A stretch of 28,136 nt of DNA from a virus: positions 1 to 28,136 of the IMG/VR virus record IMGVR_UViG_3300022929_000153; one strand, 5' to 3'. Numbering within the stretch: position 1 is the stretch's first letter; each line of letters begins with the position of its first letter. The notes under the pieces are model-generated. The model was not told where the DNA came from, searched no databases, and saw only the letters and a list, made by a program, of their open reading frames with translations. The position numbers were made by a program, and so were the translations under genes. Shown piece after piece: positions 1-27,402 of the stretch.

Positions 1-879
1 TCCTTCTTCAGCTGTAGGATTTTGCATCCACTGGCTGTTCCATTTTGATATAGGTAAAGATGCTTTTACGCCCAGTAGTTCTTCTTTTTTCCAAAACTCT
101 GGCCATAAAGGTTTTTCAGAATCTGGCAAAATTGCAGGAAACTCAACAACTTCCCATTTATCAGCATTTTCGTCGCCTTGTTTATTTAAAACTTTGCCAA
201 CCAGGTCTTTTGTGCTCCATCTGGTCATTACTATCACTATGATTCCGCCAGGCTGCAAACGCTGTCTTGGACCAGAGGTATACCATTCGTAAGCCGATTC
301 TAATGCTTTCGGTGACATTGCATCTTGTTCAGAATGAGGATCGTCAATAATTAATAAATCCGCACCACGACCTGTAATAGCACCACCGACACCAGCAGCA
401 AAGAACTCGCCTTCCTGGTTACTTGTCCAACGACCAGCTGATTTGTTATCGGCTTGTAATTGTAGATCTGGAAAAACATGCTGATAATCATCACTGTCAA
501 TAATGTTTCTAACCTTACGACCGAAACGTACAGCAAGTTCAGCGGTGTGAGTTGTTTGAATTATTTTAAGATTACCACGTCTGCCCATCATCCAAGCAGG
601 AAAAAAAGTTGATGCAAACTCTGATTTTGAGTGTCTTGGTGGCAAACATACTATTAATCTTTTGAGTTTGCCGTCGGCTATTTTATTGAATTTATCAGCA
701 ATAATTTTATGATGTCGGCCTTCTATAAAATCTGGCCACATGTGTTTTATAAAGGTTATAAAATCTTGCTGGCAAACGTCTTGTTTTTCCAGTTGATCAT
801 ATCTTTGTAATAATGCAACAGCCTCAGCTTTGTCTTGTTCAGACAAAATATCAAAATCTTTGAATTGAACATCACTCAT
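1..879 (-). CDS. terL: Terminase large subunit, C-terminus cut by window edge
   Basis: ATPase/nuclease motor that packages phage DNA into the prohead. The open frame runs from an ATG at 879 off the left edge (293 codons seen). Residues 80-86 (PPRHSKS) are the Walker A variant typical of phage terminases, following RLIVCL; residues 174-182 (DLLIIDDPH) are the Walker B motif and acidic pair. An ITGRGAD segment just before Walker B is also family-typical. The RNase H-like nuclease domain lies mostly outside the window. No good Shine-Dalgarno precedes the ATG; instead the arm of an inverted repeat ends 4 bases upstream. It is the last gene seen of the leftward late block, after lysozyme. Identification is firm from motifs; the exact terminase clade is not determined. 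Confidence 0.93.
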   Translation of the reverse strand, partial: MSDVQFKDFDILSEQDKAEAVALLQRYDQLEKQDVCQQDFITFIKHMWPDFIEGRHHKIIADKFNKIADGKLKRLIVCLPPRHSKSEFASTFFPAWMMGRRGNLKIIQTTHTAELAVRFGRKVRNIIDSDDYQHVFPDLQLQADNKSAGRWTSNQEGEFFAAGVGGAITGRGADLLIIDDPHSEQDAMSPKALESAYEWYTSGPRQRLQPGGIIVIVMTRWSTKDLVGKVLNKQGDENADKWEVVEFPAILPDSEKPLWPEFWKKEELLGVKASLPISKWNSQWMQNPTAEEG

Positions 880-964
880 AAGCGAGCTGAGAAACAAGGT
901 AGCGACGATAAAATATGCAACTCAGCTCTAAGCGATAAACGCCTAGGCGTAGTATTACACACAC
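880..964 (-). promoter_or_regulatory. Structured leader between lysozyme and terL
   Basis: The 85-base gap holds an 8-base inverted repeat (GAGCTGAG at 884-891, CTCAGCTC at 921-928), a direct repeat AAGCGA (880-885 and 930-935) and a perfect 12-base palindrome ACGCCTAGGCGT (939-950). In the leftward transcript one hairpin arm ends 4 bases before the terL ATG, so it could hide the initiation region. No ORF fits here. Function (translation control, RNA processing, or DNA site) is inference. Confidence 0.4.
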
Positions 965-1408
965 TTATACTTCGTGCCATTCTTTACCCTCGAATAGTAA
1001 AGCCTCCGCCTCTCTTCTTCTAATTAAACCCTGGAGTACCTTTCCTCCAGCTTTATTCCAACGCTTAATTTGCGCTGGCACTTCTTCGTAATTACCTTCA
1101 TTTAAAACGCGTAACATGGTAGAGCTGCTTAAATTTGATGGCCCTAAATTAAATGTCCAGGAAACCAAAGCATCGTATTGATTTTGCTCTAATGGCACTT
1201 TTACAGCTCTAGTAACAGCTTCTTCAAACTTTGATACGTCGTCCATAAGCAGTTCGTCTGCTTCTTCTTGAGTAATTTGCATATCCATGGTTACACCGTG
1301 AGTGGATCCGTAACCTATTGTCGGCACTCCTGCTGCGCAGTGATATGCTTTAAGTTCGCATCCTTCAAATTTTTTAATTAATGCTAGTCCTTCTTGTGAT
1401 ATTTTCAT
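965..1408 (-). CDS. Endolysin, GH24 (T4/R21-type) lysozyme
   Basis: Muramidase that cleaves peptidoglycan at the end of infection; 147 residues, normal length for R21-type endolysins. The GH24 catalytic signature is complete: Glu15 (KKFEG), eight residues, Cys24 in the Asp/Cys position, five residues, Thr30 (PTIGYG). A Cys at the second position is a known family variant. The C-terminal IKRWNKAGGKVLQGLIRRR segment is also typical. The start is the ATG at 1408, with GGGAGA about 8 bases upstream and one base after the preceding nuclease gene; a longer in-frame start inside that gene is unlikely. There is no signal peptide or SAR-like N-terminus, so it probably needs a holin for release. It follows the spanin pair and nuclease in the same operon. 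Confidence 0.92.
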   Translation of the reverse strand: MKISQEGLALIKKFEGCELKAYHCAAGVPTIGYGSTHGVTMDMQITQEEADELLMDDVSKFEEAVTRAVKVPLEQNQYDALVSWTFNLGPSNLSSSTMLRVLNEGNYEEVPAQIKRWNKAGGKVLQGLIRRREAEALLFEGKEWHEV

Positions 1409-1409
1409 A

Positions 1410-1790
1410 TTAGTAGTCTCCCCATATTTTTTCTTTTTTGCCACCGAAGTAAGGTACTGCATGGCCTTCTTTACAAAGTATTTCACAAATATCGTCTCCT
1501 TCTTCTGTGTAAGGTATTCCCAGGATTCTTCCGTATTTACCTTTACCTAAAGATTTTAGTTTAAATTTACCTACACACAACTCTTTCAGTCGCTCTTTTG
1601 CTGCAAGTCCTAGTTTTTTTTCTGCTAAGTCTCTCGTTCTTGATTCTGGAGTATCAATGCCGTGGAGTCTTACTCTTTGCTTGTGTAGTTTTACTGAAAA
1701 ACCAAGATCTAATACAACGTCTATCGTATCACCGTCAACAACACGATCAAGCTCTGCTCTATATACAAACGCGTCTGGTCCTTTACTCAT
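1410..1790 (-). CDS. Staphylococcal nuclease (SNase-like) homologue
   Basis: A 126-residue thermonuclease-fold protein expected to cut DNA or RNA with Ca2+. The SNase signature residues are all present: Asp21 in VVDGDT, Arg41 and Glu49 in RVRLHGIDTPE with Asp46 between them, and Arg88 in GKYGRILG, matching Asp21, Arg35, Asp40, Glu43 and Arg87 of the staphylococcal enzyme. There is no signal peptide, so it should act in the cytoplasm, perhaps degrading host nucleic acid, though its place inside the lysis genes is odd. The ATG at 1790 overlaps the end of the spanin lipoprotein gene by 8 bases; its stop lies one base before the lysozyme ATG. Close homologues occur in many marine phages (general knowledge). 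Confidence 0.9.
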   Translation of the reverse strand: MSKGPDAFVYRAELDRVVDGDTIDVVLDLGFSVKLHKQRVRLHGIDTPESRTRDLAEKKLGLAAKERLKELCVGKFKLKSLGKGKYGRILGIPYTEEGDDICEILCKEGHAVPYFGGKKEKIWGDY

Positions 1791-2151
1791 TTTCTTGCTC
1801 CTGGCTTACTGTTACTTTTCTATAATACACGACAACTTCTTTGAGTTCATTGATGTATCTTTTGAGCTCTTGCATGTTATAAGCCATAAGCTCATAGTCG
1901 GGTACGGACATAGCAAAAAAAACAACTTGTCCTTGTTCTTTTTCTACTCTAGCTAAAAAATCATCTAAGTTTTGTTCCGATACAACATACCAATAAGGTT
2001 CTTTTAGATCTATTTCTCTTGGTAGTATTGGTTGAACTATTTTACGTTCAACAGGTTTTGTAATTATTTCTACTTTTTTAGTTGGAATTAGGCTGCAACT
2101 GCAAGCCATCATCGAGATTGTCAATACTGCGACTGTCTTGTTCAATGCCAT
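1783..2151 (-). CDS. Outer-membrane spanin (Rz1-like) lipoprotein
   Basis: Probable o-spanin: an outer-membrane lipoprotein that pairs with the inner-membrane spanin to disrupt the outer membrane. 122 residues with a hydrophobic signal (MALNKTVAVLTISMMACSC) and Cys residues fitting a lipobox. The rest is charged and helical. I chose the ATG at 2151, with a perfect AAGGAGGT five bases upstream, over an in-frame TTG one codon earlier. The gene begins inside the 3' end of the preceding coiled-coil membrane gene in another frame (74-base overlap), the classical Rz/Rz1 arrangement. It is longer than the lambda Rz1 and only moderately proline-containing, so the assignment rests on context and lipobox, not on detailed similarity. 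Confidence 0.68.
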   Translation of the reverse strand: MALNKTVAVLTISMMACSCSLIPTKKVEIITKPVERKIVQPILPREIDLKEPYWYVVSEQNLDDFLARVEKEQGQVVFFAMSVPDYELMAYNMQELKRYINELKEVVVYYRKVTVSQEQENE

Positions 2152-2473
2152 CAAATACCTCCTTTGTGGCTTTATTTACTCTTGGTTCAATTAACCCTGG
2201 CTTTGCAGCAGCTAATTTAGATAGGTTGTGTCTTTTAAATATATCTAAATATCTATTCATTTCATTTTGTATTTCTTGTGTTTTAGATTGAAGATCTATT
2301 AAACCTTGTGTTTGTAATGCAAAATCTTTTTCTAAAGATTCTATTGCTTTTTTTTGTTCTGCATCTCGTAACTCGTACGCTTGATTGATGCTTACAAGAT
2401 TTTTATTCTGCATGTAGAGAAAACTACTTACAAGAATGAGAACGCCTATTACTCCTAATAATACTTTACTCAT
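2078..2473 (-). CDS. Inner-membrane spanin (Rz-like)
   Basis: Probable i-spanin: a type II membrane protein with a long periplasmic coiled coil. 131 residues; residues 4-20 form one transmembrane helix (LLGVIGVLILVSSFLYM), followed by a heptad-rich helix of about 60 residues (for example LEKDFALQTQGLIDLQ) and a low-complexity tail. Topology and the out-of-frame overlap with a downstream lipoprotein gene are what is expected for Rz/Rz1. The ATG at 2473 directly abuts the stop of the adenylate cyclase gene. Without a search I cannot exclude another coiled-coil membrane protein. Confidence 0.68.
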   Translation of the reverse strand: MSKVLLGVIGVLILVSSFLYMQNKNLVSINQAYELRDAEQKKAIESLEKDFALQTQGLIDLQSKTQEIQNEMNRYLDIFKRHNLSKLAAAKPGLIEPRVNKATKEVFDGIEQDSRSIDNLDDGLQLQPNSN

Positions 2474-4207
2474 TTAAACCGTCCATATTTTAAGTTCGTC
2501 TTTTTTACCTTTTACTTTTATAGGTTTTAGAGACTTTAACACAAGTTTGCAATTTTTTGCAGTTTCTTGCCCAACTAAAATATCCACACCAACTTCTTTG
2601 GTCGCCGACTCTAACCTTGCGGCTGTATTAACTGGATCACCAATTGCTGAATAATCAAACCTAGTATCGGATCCCATATTTCCAATTACTGCGTAACCAG
2701 AGTTCACACCGATACCAATTTCAACGCCAAGATTCGCCATTTTTATTTTGTCTTGAATTTCTTTTGCACAAAGCACTGCTGCTTGTTCGTGTCCAGGCAT
2801 ATCCAAGGGTGCGTTAAATATAGCCATCATTGCGTCTCCTATATATTTATCAACCATGCCATCATAAAATTTCACTGTATCGGCTTGTATCGTCAAAGTT
2901 TTGTTCATAATCTCGGTAACTTCTTCTGGTGACAATTTTTCACTTAATGATGTAAAGCCACGAAGATCTGTAAATAAAAACGTACAATATTTTTTCTCTC
3001 CACCAAGTTTTAGTAGATCTGGATTATCCTGGAGCTGCTTAACTTGTCTTGGATCCAGATAATGTTCAAATTGTTTTTTGATTTGTTGACGTAATAAATA
3101 CTCTTTTCTAAACCGTAAATAGAAAATAACGCTGCCAATGACAAATTCGGACACTAAAGTCCATGAAAAGTCCAATAAAATGCCTTTTTGGATGCTAAAA
3201 ACGCCTAAGAAGCCCGTCAAGGCCATGAAAATTAGTCCGAAGGCCAATGCCTTGGTCATAGTGAGATATGCGCATACAAGCGAAACTGTGAGCACAAAAA
3301 TCGCGAAAATCAAAATTTCGGCCGCTAAAGCCCAATCTGGAATTTTTGGAGAGTTTTCAATCAAAATTGACTCGGCTAAAGCTGCTTGAACTTTATGTGG
3401 ACCAAGTAATCCAACAGGAGTTGCAACTTGTGGCATGACTCCAGGAGCGTCAACCGATATAAATACAAATTTATTTTCTACTTCCATATCTTGCAAATTA
3501 GTTTCTGGTGTTTTTACCCAAGAGATCCATTTGCGGCCAAGACGATCTACATCTACAGGAGGTAGTCCCTGGACAGTAATTTGTTGCATGCCGTTTTCGT
3601 CACCTTTGATGATGTAAGTTTTAGATCCTGCCAAAACTTTCAATACTTCGGTTCCATAAGATGAAACAAAACCATCTGGAGTTTGCATTAATAAAGGTAT
3701 GCGCCTTACAAGATTGTCTATTTCGGTGGGAGCCGATGACAAGCCTTGAGGGATTAGGGTATATTTGTGGCTGTTCTGGACAACTCCCTTAGACATAATA
3801 CCACTAATATTTTCACCAAGTAAAACAGTACCACTGGTAGATGGATAAATACCGTTATCGTATTCAAACATTGCTAGAACGCTGGGACTATAACTGAGTG
3901 CTTCTAAAAACATATCATCGCCACCGAATCTATCTGCTTGTGGAAAAGATACTACCCAGCCAACACCCATAGCTCCTTTGTTTAAAAGATCAACATGTAT
4001 TTGTGCTAGCTCCTGGCGAGGAAAGGGCCAACCACCAGATTTTTGTATGTCTTCCTGGGTTATGTTAAGAATGACAAAATTACCGCTTGGCTTATATTCT
4101 TTTACAAAGGTATCAAAGGTTTGTAGTTTTAAGATCTGTAAAGGATATAACTGAAACAACAGTGGCAGCGCTAGTAATATAAAAGTTGTGAATATTGTTT
4201 TTTTCAT
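2474..4207 (-). CDS. CHASE2-domain class III adenylate cyclase
   Basis: Membrane-bound nucleotide cyclase predicted to make cAMP from ATP. 577 residues: N-terminal signal-anchor (4-24); periplasmic CHASE2 sensor (about 28-285) with the GGWPFPR motif at 58-64; three membrane helices (about 290-363); linker; C-terminal cyclase domain (about 405-577). All active-site residues are visible: metal Asp414 (FTDLRGFT) and Asp458 (YIGDAMMAIF); adenine-selecting Lys454 and Asp518 (FDYSAIG); transition-state Asn527 and Arg531 (VNTAARLES). The Lys/Asp pair argues for ATP rather than GTP. The ATG overlaps the FecR gene stop by 4 bases. FecR next to CHASE2-cyclase is a familiar bacterial pairing; inside a phage lysis block it is unusual. 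No frameshift or missing residue is seen. Confidence 0.93.
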   Translation of the reverse strand: MKKTIFTTFILLALPLLFQLYPLQILKLQTFDTFVKEYKPSGNFVILNITQEDIQKSGGWPFPRQELAQIHVDLLNKGAMGVGWVVSFPQADRFGGDDMFLEALSYSPSVLAMFEYDNGIYPSTSGTVLLGENISGIMSKGVVQNSHKYTLIPQGLSSAPTEIDNLVRRIPLLMQTPDGFVSSYGTEVLKVLAGSKTYIIKGDENGMQQITVQGLPPVDVDRLGRKWISWVKTPETNLQDMEVENKFVFISVDAPGVMPQVATPVGLLGPHKVQAALAESILIENSPKIPDWALAAEILIFAIFVLTVSLVCAYLTMTKALAFGLIFMALTGFLGVFSIQKGILLDFSWTLVSEFVIGSVIFYLRFRKEYLLRQQIKKQFEHYLDPRQVKQLQDNPDLLKLGGEKKYCTFLFTDLRGFTSLSEKLSPEEVTEIMNKTLTIQADTVKFYDGMVDKYIGDAMMAIFNAPLDMPGHEQAAVLCAKEIQDKIKMANLGVEIGIGVNSGYAVIGNMGSDTRFDYSAIGDPVNTAARLESATKEVGVDILVGQETAKNCKLVLKSLKPIKVKGKKDELKIWTV

Positions 4208-5307
4208 CCAGAAGATTGCCTTATAGTAATAGTAGAGGTTGAGGCTCCGTTAATTTGAACAGTTTTTGATACACCGTCTTGAATAAATATAACCGTGTAA
4301 GAATTATCGCCGTTGACAATGACCTGCGCGTTTTGATTTACCAAACGCATAAGTTTTACTTGAGATCCTTGAATCAGTGTGGTGATTTGTGTTTCTGGAT
4401 CTTGGCCTATATTAGTTCCAGATACTTGTATACCACTTGAAAAATTAGTTAAATTGTCTTCTTCTTTAGCTATACTAAGTTCATCTAAAACGTCTAAAAG
4501 ATCTTCTAAAAAATCTACACTTAATAGATCTATATCCAGTTCATCAAAAGATATATCTTCATCTTCTTGCAAAAAATCCTCGGCTAACAAATCAACATCA
4601 AGCTCAGTAAATTCCAGGTAGTCGGCTTGTTGTGTTTGTTCTTCTTTTTGGTTAGTAAGATCTTCTTTTGGCGGTGATACAATCAACATGTTATCAATAA
4701 AATCTAAAGTTATATCTAAAGTGACAGCTTTACTTGGTGGGTTTTCATAAACCGATGTAGTAGTTGCCTGGTAAGGTTTATTAAGTACGGTTTGGCCCAT
4801 GGCAGTTTGTACTACTATTTCACCGCTTGCATCACCAAATTCATCTGGTAAAAGTATGATCAAACTTTTACCCGTTTCGTCAACCGTACAAACAAAATCG
4901 GTGCCCTGGACAAAAATTTGTGAAGTAGGTGTTGAGAGGGTTATATTTTTTTTGTTAAGTTTGTTGGCATTACCACTAATAAACCTTATGGTACCGCTTG
5001 CAAATTGCAGTGCCATTTTTGACTTATCGGGATTTGGATCATACACATATTCGTTGATCAGAAGCTCAGAGTGTTCGGTGAGCTTTACAGTAGATTCGTC
5101 TAAAAAAGTTATAGCTATTCGGCCAGATGCTGTCTCAACATTATCTAAAGAATTTATGTCAAAATCTAATTCTGCATTATAAGGTTGATCTCTTACTACC
5201 CTACCAAAGCCTTGTAACTCTGTTATGTCTCCAATCGTATCAGCATGTAGTGGTTGTGCCACCATCACTTTGCACAACACAAATATTGCTGTTTGACGTA
5301 TTCGCAA
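4204..5307 (-). CDS. FecR-domain periplasmic protein with acidic repeat tail
   Basis: Exported protein with a FecR domain, probably acting in the periplasm as ligand or partner of the CHASE2 sensor encoded next. After the signal peptide (ending PLHA before DTIG) the FecR core shows DNVETASGRIAITFLDES, ALQFASGTIRFISG and LSTPTSQIFVQGTDF, all family-typical. The second half is acidic with an internal repeat (ELDVDLLAEDFL, then ELDIDLLSVDFLEDLLDVLDEL), and the C-terminus is beta-rich. The start is uncertain: an ATG at 5373 gives an unusually long leader and a 134-base overlap with the curlin gene; TTG at 5307 gives a normal 22-residue signal peptide (chosen); ATG at 5265 leaves almost none. The stop overlaps the cyclase ATG by 4 bases. 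Confidence 0.85.
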   Translation of the reverse strand: MRIRQTAIFVLCKVMVAQPLHADTIGDITELQGFGRVVRDQPYNAELDFDINSLDNVETASGRIAITFLDESTVKLTEHSELLINEYVYDPNPDKSKMALQFASGTIRFISGNANKLNKKNITLSTPTSQIFVQGTDFVCTVDETGKSLIILLPDEFGDASGEIVVQTAMGQTVLNKPYQATTTSVYENPPSKAVTLDITLDFIDNMLIVSPPKEDLTNQKEEQTQQADYLEFTELDVDLLAEDFLQEDEDISFDELDIDLLSVDFLEDLLDVLDELSIAKEEDNLTNFSSGIQVSGTNIGQDPETQITTLIQGSQVKLMRLVNQNAQVIVNGDNSYTVIFIQDGVSKTVQINGASTSTITIRQSSG

Positions 5308-5965
5308 TAATAGAGAGCCAATCGCGCGCCAAAGTTGACGACTGTATAATATTAAATGTGTTGCTGCTTCCATCTAAATCTAAATTGAAATAGCCAGAAT
5401 CAGAGGCTGTGGTGCCAGAGTAACCGCTGGCTGTAAAATTAATGGTGTTACTGCTACCGTTGACATCCATATAGTTTACAGCGTTTTCGTAATCAATATC
5501 AAAATCAAACTCGTTTGAGTCACCAGTTATGATCCAATCTAGATTAAGATATGAAGTGTCGGCATCTTCTGCTAATTTAATATCAGCCTCGTTGCTAGAT
5601 CCCGTTACATCAATATTAAGATCTATATAATCAGCTGTAATCAAACCAGTTGAGTTCAACAATAGATCCCAGACATTACTATCACCCTCAAACTCAAAAA
5701 AACCAGTAAAGTTTCCGCCGTCAATAGCGTCCGATCTAAAAATATTTGAAGATCCAATTTGGTTTATATCTAGTGTCATAGATGCACCATCAAGATCTAA
5801 AGCGGTCATTGTTCCAGACACTGCTGAGGTTCCGCCGATAAGGTTGGAGCTGCCGAGCTGTTCAAGATCAATGCTAGCATTAGAGCCGCTTTGATCAACA
5901 TAAATTTCGTTATCAGCCAGGACTGATAAACTAAAGAGCAAAGAAATGAGGTACCTATTCACCAT
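5240..5965 (-). CDS. Curlin-repeat (CsgA/B-like) secreted protein
   Basis: Predicted amyloid-like fibre subunit or adhesin exported through the CsgG-type pore encoded just upstream. 241 residues with a clear signal peptide (cleavage after SLSVLA). The first repeat, VDQSGSNASIDLEQLGSSN, fits the curlin pattern Q-x(3)-N-x(6)-Q-x(4)-N. Further strand-turn-strand units centre on GSSN or GDSN (about eight: QIGSSNIF, EGDSNVW, TGSSNEAD, TGDSNEFD, NGSSNTIN, DGSSNTFN, TSNSNICV); the Gln positions decay after the second unit. A pair of Cys (ICVVQS and the final TTC) lies at the end. ATG at 5965 overlaps csgG by 11 bases. It could alternatively be a non-amyloid beta-solenoid, but context favours a curli substrate. 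Confidence 0.8.
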   Translation of the reverse strand: MVNRYLISLLFSLSVLADNEIYVDQSGSNASIDLEQLGSSNLIGGTSAVSGTMTALDLDGASMTLDINQIGSSNIFRSDAIDGGNFTGFFEFEGDSNVWDLLLNSTGLITADYIDLNIDVTGSSNEADIKLAEDADTSYLNLDWIITGDSNEFDFDIDYENAVNYMDVNGSSNTINFTASGYSGTTASDSGYFNLDLDGSSNTFNIIQSSTLARDWLSIIANTSNSNICVVQSDGGTTTTC

Positions 5966-6806
5966 AGTATTTCCAATAATTTCGCTCGCGACCTTGTTTA
6001 ATTATATCTACAATACCAATTTCTATGGCGCTTTGCAAAGCGATCGACTTGCTTTCATTCATAGCATTTCCTGTCTCTAATTCTACTAGCTCAGTGTCGT
6101 TTGCAATAAAACGGAATACGTCATTAGAAAGTCCAACCGATAACAAAGTTTTAGTCGTTAAGTTCTCTAACAATATTTCACCCGTGCTAACCGATACAAC
6201 TCGTATTGCAACCAATACTTTGTCTTCTCTGTATTGCTTACTAGTTCCTATACCGAGGTACCTGGCACCTGCTCCGCCTGTAAGCAAATTAGTGTTGTAA
6301 TCAATAATGCCGCCTTCAATAATTAGACCAGCAAAAAGCAAAGGTAGTTGCTCAGATTTTTCGTCGAACTTTTCTCTGGTTGATCTTATAATCTGTCTTT
6401 CTTTAGTTATGTGATCTATACCGACTCTCTCAACTACACGAAAAAACCCAGATTGTTTTAGGGCACGAATTAGATAAGCCTCTGGAGCTTGAGTCATAGC
6501 TGTACTAAAACTGGCATATCCGTCTATTGATTTTCTTTGGCCTGTATAATCACCAAATTTATAAACAGCCACAATCGGTTGTACTTTAGCCAGGGGTACG
6601 TTTTGTATTTCTTCGGTTATAGGTTGATTATTAAAAGCGTCTTCGGAAAAACATTTTGCTTTCCCGATAACTGTAGCTAGGTCTTTATAGTCTTCTTCTG
6701 GATTAAATATACAAGGAGACACACGTTCATAATGTGTCCAGTTTGCACAACTAGCCACCAAAGCCAAAGTCGCCAATAGGAATAGTGATCTCGGTAGTTG
6801 TTTCAT
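5955..6806 (-). CDS. csgG: CsgG-like curli secretion pore lipoprotein
   Basis: Outer-membrane lipoprotein expected to form the nonameric curli export channel. 283 residues against 277 in E. coli. Lipobox LVASC puts the acylated Cys at residue 20. Recognisable family blocks in order: VAVYKFGDYTGQRK, FSTAMTQAPEAYLIRALK, FFRVVERVGIDHITKERQII, GLIIEGGIIDYNTN, TGGAGARYLGIGTSKQYRED, VAIRVVSVSTGEILLENLTT, KTLLSVGLSNDVFRFI, LQSAIEIGIVDIIKQG. In the constriction loop the Phe of FSTA is kept, while the preceding Asn of E. coli is Ser, with a one-residue insertion. Residues about 25-70 with extra Cys are not in E. coli CsgG. ATG 6806 lies 56 bases inside csgF without a clear ribosome site, so translation is probably coupled. 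Confidence 0.95.
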   Translation of the reverse strand: MKQLPRSLFLLATLALVASCANWTHYERVSPCIFNPEEDYKDLATVIGKAKCFSEDAFNNQPITEEIQNVPLAKVQPIVAVYKFGDYTGQRKSIDGYASFSTAMTQAPEAYLIRALKQSGFFRVVERVGIDHITKERQIIRSTREKFDEKSEQLPLLFAGLIIEGGIIDYNTNLLTGGAGARYLGIGTSKQYREDKVLVAIRVVSVSTGEILLENLTTKTLLSVGLSNDVFRFIANDTELVELETGNAMNESKSIALQSAIEIGIVDIIKQGRERNYWKYYGE

Positions 6807-7272
6807 CTAAAGTATTATAAATGGTTAAAGTAATATATGTCCCATCACTGGTCCAACTTATAATATTATCAAAGAGCTCAAAAGATCCTGTTTCTTCTGG
6901 ATTTTCACCAAATAGCTGATCAACTATTTGTCTTGATATTTGCGCAAATATTCTGGACTCAAGGTTTTTAGTAAACCTAGAAACGACTGAGTTTTCTTCG
7001 TCTCTTTTTCTTTGGTCTTCCAAGGCTTTCAAGTCTGCTCGGAGCTGTTCTTTACGCGTATACTCTTGTGATTCTACAGTCAAATAATGTGAGCTGGTGC
7101 CAATCCCAGAAAATGAAGGTGATTTAAAATGAAACTTGATTTCGTCAGCTTTTAAGTTTTCTACAAAAATACCGATAATTAAAATTATGCCAATAAGCAT
7201 TATTGACCATAGCACTTTATCTTTTTCGCGTTGTTCTTTTGCTAATTGTCTTTTAGTCTTTTCTTTGATCAT
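6751..7272 (-). CDS. csgF: CsgF-like curli assembly protein
   Basis: Periplasmic/surface factor that in curli systems inserts into the CsgG pore and couples export to nucleation. 173 residues. An uncleaved-looking basic N-region (about 17 residues) is followed by a hydrophobic stretch (SIMLIGIILIIGIF) and a likely cleavage after ENLKA. The mature start, DEIKFHFKSPSFSGIG, matches the CsgF N-terminal signature F-x-F-x-x-P-x-F-x-G that plugs CsgG. A central helix (QLRADLKALEDQRKRDEE) and a C-terminal beta region (ITLTIYNTLDETTTEITIP) follow the family plan. ATG 7272 has GGCGGATAG just upstream and overlaps the previous gene by 20 bases; a longer GTG start is less likely. The 3' end overlaps csgG by 56 bases. 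Being next to csgG makes the call strong. Confidence 0.85.
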   Translation of the reverse strand: MIKEKTKRQLAKEQREKDKVLWSIMLIGIILIIGIFVENLKADEIKFHFKSPSFSGIGTSSHYLTVESQEYTRKEQLRADLKALEDQRKRDEENSVVSRFTKNLESRIFAQISRQIVDQLFGENPEETGSFELFDNIISWTSDGTYITLTIYNTLDETTTEITIPIGDFGFGG

Positions 7273-7603
7273 CTCTATCCGCCTTAGCCAACCTGTCGGT
7301 GTGCATAAGTTGTGGTACACCTAATATAGTCTTAAGAAGGGTATCTTGTCTAATTATCTCGTTGTCTACAGATCTTACTCTGTCTATAAGAGCCACTAAA
7401 ATACCGTGTTGTGAATCTAGTTTTTGGCCAAGTCGTTGTTCTATTTCTGATATTTGTGCAGAAACTTTTTCATCAAGTACATCAACTTTAGTTTCCATAC
7501 CATCAATAATTTTATTGATCAGCTTCCAGATAAATAAACCTAAACCAATAGCTGCTGCTATGGGAAAACCTACTTCGTTTATGAGTTGTACCGCGGAGTC
7601 CAT
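7253..7603 (-). CDS. Membrane-anchored coiled-coil protein, holin-like candidate
   Basis: 116 residues: one N-terminal transmembrane helix (about residues 10-30, VGFPIAAAIGLGLFIWKLI) followed by a long amphipathic coiled coil (DVLDEKVSAQISEIEQRL) and a charged tail rich in Asp, Arg and Lys. Similar small proteins with a glycine/alanine-rich N-terminal helix sit near lysis genes in many phages, and some are called BhlA-type holins; that is inference here. ATG 7603 directly abuts the previous stop. It is immediately upstream of csgF, so the curli-like genes are translated from the same message. Confidence 0.6.
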   Translation of the reverse strand: MDSAVQLINEVGFPIAAAIGLGLFIWKLINKIIDGMETKVDVLDEKVSAQISEIEQRLGQKLDSQHGILVALIDRVRSVDNEIIRQDTLLKTILGVPQLMHTDRLAKADRDDQRKD

Positions 7604-7786
7604 TTAGATCAGCTCCGCAATTACAATAGCTCCTACAATAAATGGATAAACGGCCCAGATCATGTTTTCAAGTTTATCAAAACGTTTTGATCCATCCTCA
7701 AGTCTTTTATCAATACTTTTATATAAAGCTCTACACTCTCTTTCGTGAGCTTCGATTTTATTTAAAGCATCTTTTACTGTTGCCAT
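7604..7786 (-). CDS. Small XhlA-like protein with C-terminal membrane helix
   Basis: 60 residues: N-terminal helical, charged part (KIEAHERECRALYKSIDKRL) and a C-terminal transmembrane helix (MIWAVYPFIVGAIVIAELI). The layout, with Y-x-x-I-D-x-R-L-x-D-G before the membrane helix, recalls XhlA-type haemolysin/holin-associated proteins. It starts at an ATG that shares a base with the previous stop (TAATG) and ends directly before the next ATG. Function in lysis is inferred from topology and neighbours. Confidence 0.6.
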   Translation of the reverse strand: MATVKDALNKIEAHERECRALYKSIDKRLEDGSKRFDKLENMIWAVYPFIVGAIVIAELI

Positions 7787-7977
7787 TAGTCACTACCTGT
7801 ATTGTCATAAAATTTTTTTGGTCTGCCTCTTTTCTTAACCCTTTTGGTAGTATAGGCTTCATTGACATCTAGAGTAGATTTATCATCTGCAACATAATGT
7901 CCTTTTTTGTTTCTGGCTCTTACTTTTACTCTTTCAGTGCCAGTAACCTTATCCCAAAATTTAGCTAAAATACCCAT
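7786..7977 (-). CDS. Small basic protein of unknown function
   Basis: 63 residues, strongly basic, with a KKRGRPKKFYDN segment near the C-terminus that resembles an AT-hook (R-G-R-P) and could touch DNA minor groove or nucleoprotein. No membrane helix or signal. The ATG is one base after the previous stop and the stop overlaps the next ATG (TAATG), so it is a genuine operon member. I do not recognise a family; an AT-hook in a late-block gene is the only functional hint. Confidence 0.6.
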   Translation of the reverse strand: MGILAKFWDKVTGTERVKVRARNKKGHYVADDKSTLDVNEAYTTKRVKKRGRPKKFYDNTGSD

Positions 7978-7978
7978 C

Positions 7979-8140
7979 TTAATTACCTTTGTCTTTAGCC
8001 TTCATTATGTTTAGTGCTAATAGATCTATAAACTTATAGAGTTTACCAATCCAGGCATCATCCTTTGGCGTAGGTGTAGTAGCTGCGATTAGAGATGCAA
8101 CTGTAACGATTGTGGTTACCCACATAATTATATCTGCCAT
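7979..8140 (-). CDS. Small membrane protein, holin-like candidate
   Basis: 53 residues: one hydrophobic helix (IIMWVTTIVTVASLIAATTP, about 4-23) followed by PKDDAWIGKLYKFIDLLALN and a basic tail. One N-terminal membrane segment, short length and position at the head of the holin-like/curli/lysis series fit a small holin or antiholin; proteins of this form recur in marine phages. The ATG at 8140 shares a base with the previous stop (TAATG). Below usual ORF length cut-offs but supported by overlap on both sides. Confidence 0.65.
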   Translation of the reverse strand: MADIIMWVTTIVTVASLIAATTPTPKDDAWIGKLYKFIDLLALNIMKAKDKGN

Positions 8141-8334
8141 TATTCATCTTCCTCTGGTTGTGGATCTTCTTCAAGATCCTGGGTTTCTTCTGGATCAGCA
8201 AACTCTTTGAGTTGCTCAACCACCTCTTTTCTTAGTATAGCAACAGACTCTAGTTCTTCGCCATTCCAAGTACCTCTTTTTGCTGCTACATCAATGAGCT
8301 GTAGCATGCCTAATAAAAATTGTTTTTGATCCAT
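8140..8334 (-). CDS. Small acidic-tailed phage protein
   Basis: 64 residues, predicted helical, with a strongly acidic C-terminal half (PEETQDLEEDPQPEEDE). GGAGACGATA before the ATG at 8334 gives a strong ribosome site. It starts a run of tightly overlapping genes that continues to lysozyme. No recognised domain; the acidic tail may mediate protein contact. A GATC at its start (8328) is the last before the GATC-free block. Confidence 0.6.
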   Translation of the reverse strand: MDQKQFLLGMLQLIDVAAKRGTWNGEELESVAILRKEVVEQLKEFADPEETQDLEEDPQPEEDE

Positions 8335-13661: not shown

Positions 13662-14450
13662 CTATTCGTGAAGGCCTTGGAATTTTCTCTTGAGAATCCT
13701 CTGGACTTTGTGATACGGAAAGTCCTCGTATCCAGGGTGAGAATTTTGGATCTGAGTCGCTATCTTCCTGGCACCCAAACCTCTCTCTCTAAGCGCTTTG
13801 ATATGTCTTAGGACCGCTTGTTCCTCTGGAACTGGCACCAGCTTAGTTCTTCTTCTGCTACCAGATTCGTCGTATTCTTTTTTATAGCCAAAAGGTGTCT
13901 TGCCACCGATCGAGTAACCTTTTTCTGCGTAGACCAGCTTGCCACCGTTAAGCCTAGACATAATCATTTCTCTCTCGATCTCGGCGAACTGCGCCATGTT
14001 GGTCACTAGGTTTTGGTTAGCTATTCTGGTCATATCCATTTTTGCTGCTAGGCCCGTTTGTTCTTTTTGTTTGGGTAGAACCACTGGTATGTCTGCAAAC
14101 ATATCGCAGAAGTAAAGTGTGATCCCAGTCTCTTCCAGAGTAGGAATCATGTTGACCATTTCTAAAAAGGATCTTGCAAGCCTGTCGAGCTTGGTTGCTA
14201 CTATCACGTCGTTTGCGTCCATAGTATCGGTCAGCTCCCTGGAGCCTGGCCTTTCGAGTAATGGCTTCATGCCACTTATCCCAGCGTCGGTAAAGAACTT
14301 GTCAACTTTCCTGCCGCCAAACTTGTTGGCCACAAACTCTTCAATCGACTTCTTTTGCTCCTCTAGGGAAGATCCATCCCTGGCCTGTTGCTCAGACGAT
14401 ACTCTGATATAGCCGTAGATATTGTTTACTTGTTTTCTTGGTTCAATCAT
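13662..14450 (-). CDS. Serine recombinase (resolvase/integrase family)
   Basis: Site-specific DNA recombinase of 262 residues. N-terminal resolvase domain: YGYIRVSSEQQ (catalytic Ser18), VIVATKLDRLARS with the conserved Asp-Arg-Leu-Ala-Arg, and the IEREMIMSRLNGG helix. C-terminal part (PFGYKK, then EEQAVLRHIKALRERGLGAR) is the Recombinase/HTH DNA-binding region, shorter than in large serine integrases. It may integrate the phage genome, resolve, or invert a segment; no obvious att core or invertible segment with paired repeats is seen nearby. ATG 14450 has GGAGG six bases upstream and overlaps the preceding gene by 8. It is the last of five genes in a leftward early-type operon starting near 15.69 kb. 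Confidence 0.92.
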   Translation of the reverse strand: MIEPRKQVNNIYGYIRVSSEQQARDGSSLEEQKKSIEEFVANKFGGRKVDKFFTDAGISGMKPLLERPGSRELTDTMDANDVIVATKLDRLARSFLEMVNMIPTLEETGITLYFCDMFADIPVVLPKQKEQTGLAAKMDMTRIANQNLVTNMAQFAEIEREMIMSRLNGGKLVYAEKGYSIGGKTPFGYKKEYDESGSRRRTKLVPVPEEQAVLRHIKALRERGLGARKIATQIQNSHPGYEDFPYHKVQRILKRKFQGLHE

Positions 14451-17295: not shown

Positions 17296-17380
17296 AAAAA
17301 ATATACCAGCACACTTGCAGTATCTAAGCGATTCAGCTCTTAGAACATTAATAGAGCTGCATAAGCCTAGATCTATCTAA
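17282..17380 (+). CDS. Possible 32-residue protein ending the operon
   Basis: MPINRKNIPAHLQYLSDSAL followed by a short helix (RTLIELHKP). ATG 17282 overlaps the previous gene by 14 bases like other junctions here, but has no clear ribosome site (GAGGATTATT is the nearest). Its end overlaps the stop of the opposing oxygenase gene by 8 bases. Uncertain. Confidence 0.4.
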   Translation: MPINRKNIPAHLQYLSDSALRTLIELHKPRSI

Positions 17381-17927
17381 AAGGCGGGCCAGTAAACCAG
17401 GCAACGACCACATAACGGTCGCCTTTGGTTACAGGTTTGACCTGGTGCGAGATAAATGAGCTAAAAGCGACTATCTCTCCCATCTTCAAACGCGTACAAC
17501 TAGCGTTATCACTGGTACGAAAGCAGATTTCGCCGCCTTCGTATTCATCGTTTAGCATTAAAGACATACTGATCTTCCGATTGGCAGCTGTTCCCTCTGG
17601 TCCTATGTCGATATGATAGCCGTAGCCGTTACTCGGCGATTTATAGTGCAAAATTTGCGCTGTCTCGATTCCAGATATGTCGTATCTAAAATATTTATTC
17701 GCAGAAACCGCGACTCTGTTAAGGATCCTATAAAGGCGGTCCTCTTTAGCGTCAATATAGCGCACCTCAACGTCTCTTAGATCTTTATTTTTTGTTTCCG
17801 CGTTCTTGTCGTGTACCATTCCAGGCTCTGGATCCGTTTCAACCAGGTAATCTAAAAAGAGCTCTACTTCGTCTTGCGTGACAGACAGGCCAGTAACACC
17901 ATGATTAGGCATTAAATCGGCCGTCAT
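17373..17927 (-). CDS. 2OG-Fe(II) oxygenase, prolyl-hydroxylase type
   Basis: 184-residue dioxygenase of the P4H/PiuC-like group that couples 2-oxoglutarate decarboxylation to hydroxylation. Iron ligands and cosubstrate residue are visible: His105 and Asp107 in GYGYHIDIG, His161 in SSFISHQVKPV, Arg171 in KGDRYVVVAWF, the last motif being typical of the PKHD branch. The segment YEGGEICFRT is the usual strand before the second half of the motif. Substrate unknown (protein side chain or nucleic acid). ATG 17927 has GGAGG four bases upstream and overlaps the nuclease gene by 23 bases. Common in marine T4-like and other phages. Confidence 0.88.
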   Translation of the reverse strand: MTADLMPNHGVTGLSVTQDEVELFLDYLVETDPEPGMVHDKNAETKNKDLRDVEVRYIDAKEDRLYRILNRVAVSANKYFRYDISGIETAQILHYKSPSNGYGYHIDIGPEGTAANRKISMSLMLNDEYEGGEICFRTSDNASCTRLKMGEIVAFSSFISHQVKPVTKGDRYVVVAWFTGPPFR

Positions 17928-26688: not shown

Positions 26689-27402
26689 TTAGTCTAAATA
26701 ATGGAATAAATCAACGGTCCTTTGCTTGTCGCAAAGCCAAAAAACCAGGAGATATCTGTCGCCGCTTTCAACGGGTAACCCTTTGTGTAGGTTGTTGAAA
26801 CTTGGGAACATAAGCGCATGGCCAGTGGGCAAGGGTGGGACCTCACCGTAATTATGAAACTCAGTGCCGCCACCTTTATACTTGCCAGTATTCAGTGGGA
26901 CCACAACTGATATATCTGCCGATTCATCGTGATGCCAGGCACCTTGTTTTTTATCTTTTAAATTATAGTTAGCGATCTGTATGCTTGCAGGATCACTACA
27001 ATCTCTTTGCCAGATTGCATTAAAGATAGGATTAAGAACTGTTTGGACCACAAACCACATAGTTCGATACAGCTCTGGTACTTGTTCTTTTAGTACGATT
27101 TCTGGGATCTGTCGATATACATCTTCGTCCTGGTTACCTTCAAACCCTATTTCTTTTTTCATGTGCTCGATTTCTCTGATCAGCAAAGTGCAGAAGTGTC
27201 TGCGAAACAATGGGAATCTGTAGATCTCTGGATAGATCTTTTTAACCAGGTCATGGATTGGAGTTTTACCCATATCTTCCAGGCCGTTACTGGATTTGTA
27301 TTTAATGATCTGCGGCACACTGTCTTCGACAGCTTTTTGCGTCTTATGATTAATCATCCAGTTGGACTGCATGCTCAACAGGTAATCTTTCAATTTGTAC
27401 AT
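26689..27402 (-). CDS. Second 2OG-Fe(II) oxygenase
   Basis: 237 residues. The double-stranded beta-helix core is in the C-terminal half: His157 and Asp159 in AWHHDESADISVVVPL, GGGTEFHNYG, PTGHALMFPS, His206 in NNLHKGLPV and Arg216 in SGDRYLLVFWL, the complete Fe(II)/2-oxoglutarate set. The N-terminal 140 residues are helical and unlike the first oxygenase in this window. Substrate unknown. ATG 27402 lacks a Shine-Dalgarno but has TGATATACT exactly 6 bases upstream, so the transcript should be leaderless. Separate from the small-gene set that follows. Confidence 0.87.
   Translation of the reverse strand: MYKLKDYLLSMQSNWMINHKTQKAVEDSVPQIIKYKSSNGLEDMGKTPIHDLVKKIYPEIYRFPLFRRHFCTLLIREIEHMKKEIGFEGNQDEDVYRQIPEIVLKEQVPELYRTMWFVVQTVLNPIFNAIWQRDCSDPASIQIANYNLKDKKQGAWHHDESADISVVVPLNTGKYKGGGTEFHNYGEVPPLPTGHALMFPSFNNLHKGLPVESGDRYLLVFWLCDKQRTVDLFHYLD

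Follow-up and report, generated by a model that had tools for sequence, protein, structure and literature searches.

A curli-type (type VIII) secretion module was identified in the lysis region of a marine virus of bacteria, the uncultivated virus record IMGVR_UViG_3300022929_000153, whose 28,136 bases are referred to here as the window. Five genes, encoding CsgF, CsgG, a curlin-like protein, a FecR-domain protein and a CHASE2-cyclase, form an overlapping string, which is followed immediately by a spanin pair and a lysozyme gene, as Pfam matches and the gene junctions established, and this phage-borne unit was kept in the lysis block of many viral contigs; on both points the first-pass annotation of the sequence was borne out. 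The position of the module is almost fixed in the window's lineage. The module is probably (about 0.6) functional and expressed late, with fibres forming on the infected cell just before lysis. Modules of this kind were already known, and what is new is the member of the lineage, the pattern of position and the correction of one gene.

On the minus strand, 14 genes follow one another from 8334 to 965, and every junction is an overlap or a gap of 0-1 nt. csgF (6751..7272, Pfam CsgF E=4e-17) overlaps csgG (5955..6806, Pfam E=2e-45) by 56 nt, and these are followed by the curlin-like gene (5240..5965), fecR (4204..5307, Pfam FecR E=1e-9) and the gene for the CHASE2-class III adenylate cyclase (2474..4207), which overlaps fecR by 4 nt. 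An Rz-like spanin gene (2078..2473, phrog_739 E=1e-11) begins on the next base after the cyclase stop, a second Rz-like spanin gene (1783..2154, phrog_812 E=4e-12) overlaps the first, and the phage lysozyme (endolysin) is encoded at 965..1486 (Pfam Phage_lysozyme E=6e-51). The interval originally assigned to the cassette, 4204-7272, is the span of csgF to fecR and left out the cyclase (2474-4207). Gene calls were backed by Pfam and PHROGs profile searches, while signal peptides and membrane segments were assigned by eye; promoter and terminator scans gave chance-level results only. The junctions were identical in independent contigs from different metagenomes (L001, L003, L018, L026 and others), so that an assembly chimera, which had been raised as a possible source of the phage join, is ruled out for the cassette.

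Loci were collected by two types of search, one anchored on the csg genes and one anchored on the lysozyme without use of the csg genes, and their results agreed. The contigs were picked by similarity to the window, and the position counts therefore apply to one lineage. Among lysozyme-anchored contigs, the cyclase was found in 48 of the 49 with at least 2.5 kb of upstream sequence, and csgG in all of those with at least 7.5 kb (15/15). In this set the cyclase shared the strand of the lysozyme in 54 of 54 cases, at a distance of 431-1420 nt. When both sets were pooled, the cyclase was followed by the lysozyme on the same strand at 89 loci on 88 contigs (L003 and L020 are one contig). The interval between them held either spanins, in some cases together with the nuclease, or a gene for a small membrane-type protein of 155 aa (phrog_1544, unknown function), which in some members of the lineage stands in place of recognisable spanins.

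The same gene set stays together in phages of different types. The suggestion that it always lies between holin-like genes and spanins was correct for the window's podophage lineage, but not for two cultured phages, Pelagibacter phage HTVC008M (NC_020484) and Methylophilales phage Melnitz (MZ577096), in which the module lies between replication and tail genes and away from the lysis genes, nor for a second uncultivated group (L004-L019), in which no window-type lysozyme was found near the module at 14 of 14 csg-anchored loci. One podophage relative (L139, 467-4181) has two other secreted-looking proteins in place of curli at the site bounded by the small membrane genes and the spanins, a 374-aa Asn/Thr-rich protein and a 744-aa acidic protein.

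The first gene of the module, recognised by its conserved position, lies ahead of csgF and encodes in the window (7253..7603) a protein of 116 aa that combines a hydrophobic N-terminal segment with a coiled coil. A gene of this type preceded csgF in 75 of the 80 loci having 1 kb of upstream sequence, was occasionally doubled (L007), and had a homologue directly upstream of csgF in both HTVC008M and Melnitz. Its products are membrane/coiled-coil proteins of ~80-120 aa without a kinase domain, showing marginal similarity to holins (phrog_4898, E=7e-4) and weak similarity to YvrJ. The first-pass annotation described a flank of holin-like genes, but only this gene had even a marginal holin match, and it travels with the curli genes. 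Because it belongs to the curli module, it is by itself weak evidence for a lysis block, for which the solid evidence is the spanins and the lysozyme. A gene ahead of csgF, sometimes two, was named histidine kinase by Wittmers 2022 (PMC9599517), and judging from its position and doubled copies the first module gene is probably this "HK". No HATPase_c domain was found in 12 phage records (the window and 11 related records, including HTVC008M and Melnitz). It is more likely that the histidine kinase label is at fault than that membership in the pelagiphage type VIII secretion system module is, and the correction takes a misleading part out of the published model.

Proteins of the module

CsgG, a predicted outer-membrane lipoprotein pore, gave a profile match to the solved CsgG of Escherichia coli (1.8e-66) and has a VASC lipobox with an invariant Cys20. 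The open reading frame of CsgF extends over 6751-7320, and relatives point to a start at 7272. Direct profile comparison of the phage CsgF with the solved CsgF gave a weak match (E 0.42). The N-terminal motif FxFxxPxFxGxG, which corresponds to the CsgG-binding peptide of E. coli CsgF, was largely conserved across 15 phages. A csgG-like stretch was also seen at 295-942 of OR851715.1, a 1.5-kb record that bears the name Salmonella phage S.Kent 1-2-1, where it makes up nearly half the length of the record and is probably host DNA.

The product of 5240-5965 was classed as a curlin-like (CsgA/B-type) repeat protein, predicted to be secreted, from its repeats, its structural model and its homologues. 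The curlin repeat match was under the Pfam cut-off (E=0.0037, 17.6 bits versus 20.7). Eight GxxN motifs were present, compared with a mean of 2.1 and a maximum of 7 in 5000 shuffles, and HTVC008M has a homologue of the protein that is annotated as "curlin-associated". The AlphaFold model was an all-beta repeat structure (pLDDT 84.6), and its best viral match was an annotated phage curlin protein (TM 0.81). A Foldseek search of the model against the PDB gave no significant match, and VIA-align 2 returned generic beta-helix/beta-solenoid proteins, with no curli structure among those listed. The top VIA-align 2 likeness, to SufD (Z 17.5, 3.4 A over 202 residues), was treated as shared shape only.

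The FecR-domain protein has an apparent signal peptide. Its open reading frame reaches an ATG at 5373, and comparison with relatives indicates that translation probably starts at the TTG at 5307 instead. Its AlphaFold model was poor (pLDDT 59) and was not used. A conserved QDG...ITIxQ stretch (window 4204-4400) at the end of the FecR proteins of the phage modules resembles a curlin repeat by eye, and QxGxxN occurred within the last 60 residues in 10 of 38 distinct tails versus 3% in shuffles. The idea of a hidden curlin repeat at the FecR C-terminus was not supported: a 219-unit curlin profile gave the tails scores no higher than those of shuffled sequence.

The cyclase matched the CHASE2 and class III cyclase families of Pfam (E=6e-23 and 7e-18, respectively). 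Its catalytic residues D414, K454, D458 and R531 did not vary among 14 phages, and N527 was close to invariant; a CHASE2 sensor together with intact catalytic residues identifies the predicted protein as a class III adenylate cyclase. All of the module genes are under purifying selection, with dN/dS of 0.02-0.19 in six genes, including 0.035-0.052 for the curlin-like gene (where dS was estimable), 0.025-0.082 for fecR and 0.10-0.19 for the cyclase gene.

Related modules in phages and bacteria

The first-pass annotation considered the unit to be undescribed, and this was incorrect, as HTVC008M and Melnitz are annotated with the module and three papers discuss it. Zaragoza-Solas 2020 reported the cluster from pelagimyophages and suggested sibling capture (PMC7029224), Buchholz 2022 proposed a pinholin or secretin role in lysis for Melnitz (PMC9004378), and Wittmers 2022 reported the module, with FecR and the cyclase, in nine HTVC023P-type podophages and found transcripts of its components in metatranscriptomes (PMC9599517). 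The main text of the last paper does not mention holin, lysozyme or endolysin. The gene order in those podophages, csgF-csgG-curlin-fecR-(curlin2)-adenylate cyclase with one or two small genes ahead, is that of the window except for the second curlin gene, which is missing in the window, as the paper allows. HTVC008M and Melnitz likewise have the same order, including FecR and the CHASE2 cyclase, but contain the second curlin (csgF-csgG-curlin-fecR-curlin2-cyclase); their CsgG proteins were 44% and 39% identical, respectively, to that of the window over the alignment.

The gene for the terminase large subunit (TerL; 1..897, minus strand, cut by the contig end) begins 67 nt past the lysozyme gene. 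TerL identity was 62% to 023Pt_psg01, 58% to HTVC027P and ~57% to HTVC023P, which would place the window phage near the HTVC023P-type phages. There was no nucleotide match of the window to any phage record, and when 24-kb stretches were compared the only other window protein recovered was the terminase small subunit, with a distant counterpart in HTVC027P (35%).

Like the curli system of E. coli (csgBAC-csgDEFG), the window has homologues of CsgG and CsgF and a curlin-like repeat protein predicted to be exported by Sec. It differs in that CsgE is absent, as the first-pass annotation had stated, CsgC and CsgD were not seen, FecR and the cyclase are added, and the fibre subunit is divergent.

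A bacterial counterpart was found in Hyphomonas sp. TMED17, in which csgF-csgG-curlin-fecR-CHASE2 cyclase form one tight string on a 705-kb chromosome contig (NHBW01000006; L163 9420-15443). The same order at high identity in a bacterial chromosome had been named beforehand as evidence that would count against a phage unit; identity to the window was only 33-43%, short of that mark, the operon is flanked by metabolic genes, and there is no small membrane gene in front. The Hyphomonas curlin has 504 aa and 19 GxxN motifs, mostly 22-26 aa apart. This was the only one of 385 sampled alphaproteobacterial genomes with a strong full FecR match, and no fecR-cyclase neighbours were found at 20 curli loci in 19 genomes of its family. 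The presence of all five genes in one bacterial operon suggests that the FecR-cyclase pair may have travelled with the curli genes rather than having been added by phages. In the CsgG tree the Hyphomonas copy forms a long branch next to the phage clade, a placement that does not tell donor from recipient.

Phage-type curli modules were also encountered in contigs of bacterial metagenome-assembled genomes (L157, L160, L162 and L195, and probably L158, L165-L168 and L171), with taxa given as Pelagibacter, Synechococcus, Sphingobacteriales, Flavobacteriaceae and Rhodobacteraceae. L157, L160, L162 and L195 were rejected as bacterial carriers since they appear to be misbinned phage contigs: L160 and L162 contain replication or recombination genes of phage type, and L195 contains the window's lysis block. 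Contigs resembling misbinned phage were left out of the bacterial counts.

Possible functions of the module

What phage-borne curli genes do has been described as a mystery since 2020. Late export of fibres is the simplest reading of the module because the genes for pore, plug, fibre and signalling are intact and evolve under purifying selection within the lysis operon. The cassette would be transcribed late together with the lysis genes, and CsgF, CsgG and the curlin-like protein would be exported by the Sec system of the host. CsgG would then enter the outer membrane, plugged and guided by CsgF, and the curlin-like beta-repeat protein would exit through this pore and assemble into fibres on the infected cell soon before it lyses. 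An envelope-sensing pair that raises cAMP at that time may be formed by the FecR-domain protein, which would be secreted, and the CHASE2 cyclase in the inner membrane. The likely benefit would be that the fibres keep neighbouring cells and debris near the burst, or that they shield the cell from competing phages. That one lineage keeps the module in overlapping, nearly fixed linkage with the lysis genes leads to a testable prediction of timing, namely late, just before lysis, and the position pattern and the gene correction may interest specialists.

Several observations weigh against late fibre export. Of the eight motifs in the curlin-like protein, only two match the strict QxGxxN curli repeat, and the window lacks a separate CsgB-type nucleator. 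CsgE was not found in the window or in 11 related phage records; this does not exclude membership in the curli family, because curli of alphaproteobacteria are also without CsgE (PMC3521004). Cultures infected with Melnitz did not clump, and the fibre genes of that phage were unrecognised in the study (Buchholz 2022, PMC9004378). Late timing may not be general, since the modules of HTVC008M and Melnitz are not beside lysis genes. A stronger version of the proposal, in which the module is now core to the lysis programme of the podophage lineage, is doubtful; the deployment of fibres and pore would be coordinated with that of spanin and lysozyme, with the result that lysing cells are tied to the cells around them or that lysis is set by the pore itself, and cAMP from the FecR-CHASE2 pair would tune the timing.

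The CsgG-CsgF pore could instead have been repurposed as a lysis aid or as a gated channel in the outer membrane, depolarising or opening the envelope when infection ends, as proposed for Melnitz by Buchholz 2022. The first-pass annotation had also raised the use of CsgG as an outer-membrane lysis aid, and the fusion of the module to the spanin-lysozyme string in the window's lineage is consistent with it, as is the marginal holin or YvrJ similarity of the small membrane protein encoded first. However, the window already has a two-gene spanin set; conservation is just as strong in the genes for the fibre, FecR and cyclase, which a lysis pore would not need; and in other types of phage (the second group, 14/14, HTVC008M and Melnitz) the module is not near a window-type lysozyme, so this role is possible but unlikely. 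To a similar degree it is improbable that the interval flanked by the small membrane genes and the spanins simply serves as a late-region cargo site, in which placement reflects late expression of any surface cargo and carries no information on lysis. The two large secreted-looking proteins at the same spot in L139, and the other contexts of the module in other phages, would fit such a site, but L139 is the sole relative of this kind, and the module occupies the spot in all other lysozyme-anchored loci with enough DNA, suggesting a tighter link than a swap site.

Less probable still is that CsgG serves as a channel through which large nutrients are taken up during infection (Zaragoza-Solas 2020, Wittmers 2022). 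The lack of a CsgE gate in the 12 phage records is compatible with a channel, but is shared by the bacterial alphaproteobacterial curli noted above (PMC3521004); the conserved fibre gene and CsgF are left unexplained, and the lysis-linked position is late for uptake. The link to the lysis genes makes uptake less likely, and aggregation, shielding or lysis control more so. An origin of the arrangement as a chimeric assembly or as decaying passenger genes is extremely improbable, given the same junctions in many contigs from different metagenomes and dN/dS far under 1. Fibre export just before lysis remains the preferred reading.

Neighbouring genes

Four small genes span 7604-8334 ahead of the 116-aa gene, all on the minus strand. 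They include genes for a 60-aa protein with a C-terminal hydrophobic segment and marginal XhlA/hemolysin-like similarity (7604..7786, phrog_1193 E=0.026), a 63-aa protein conserved in podophage relatives (7786..7977), and a 53-aa membrane protein that is a possible holin (7979..8140, phrog_9685, unknown function, E=2e-11) and recurs near lysozyme or module genes in relatives. At the other end, an SNase-like nuclease (1410..1790, minus strand, Pfam SNase E=8e-13) is encoded between the second spanin gene and the lysozyme gene.

Elsewhere in the window, a serine recombinase/integrase-like gene (13662-14450; phrog_95, phrog_125) may reflect a temperate lifestyle or an invertase; by TerL the window is related to lytic HTVC023P-type phages. 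Two 2OG-Fe(II) oxygenase-like genes (17373-17927 and 26689-27402) are of a type reported to be frequent in HTVC023P-type phages.

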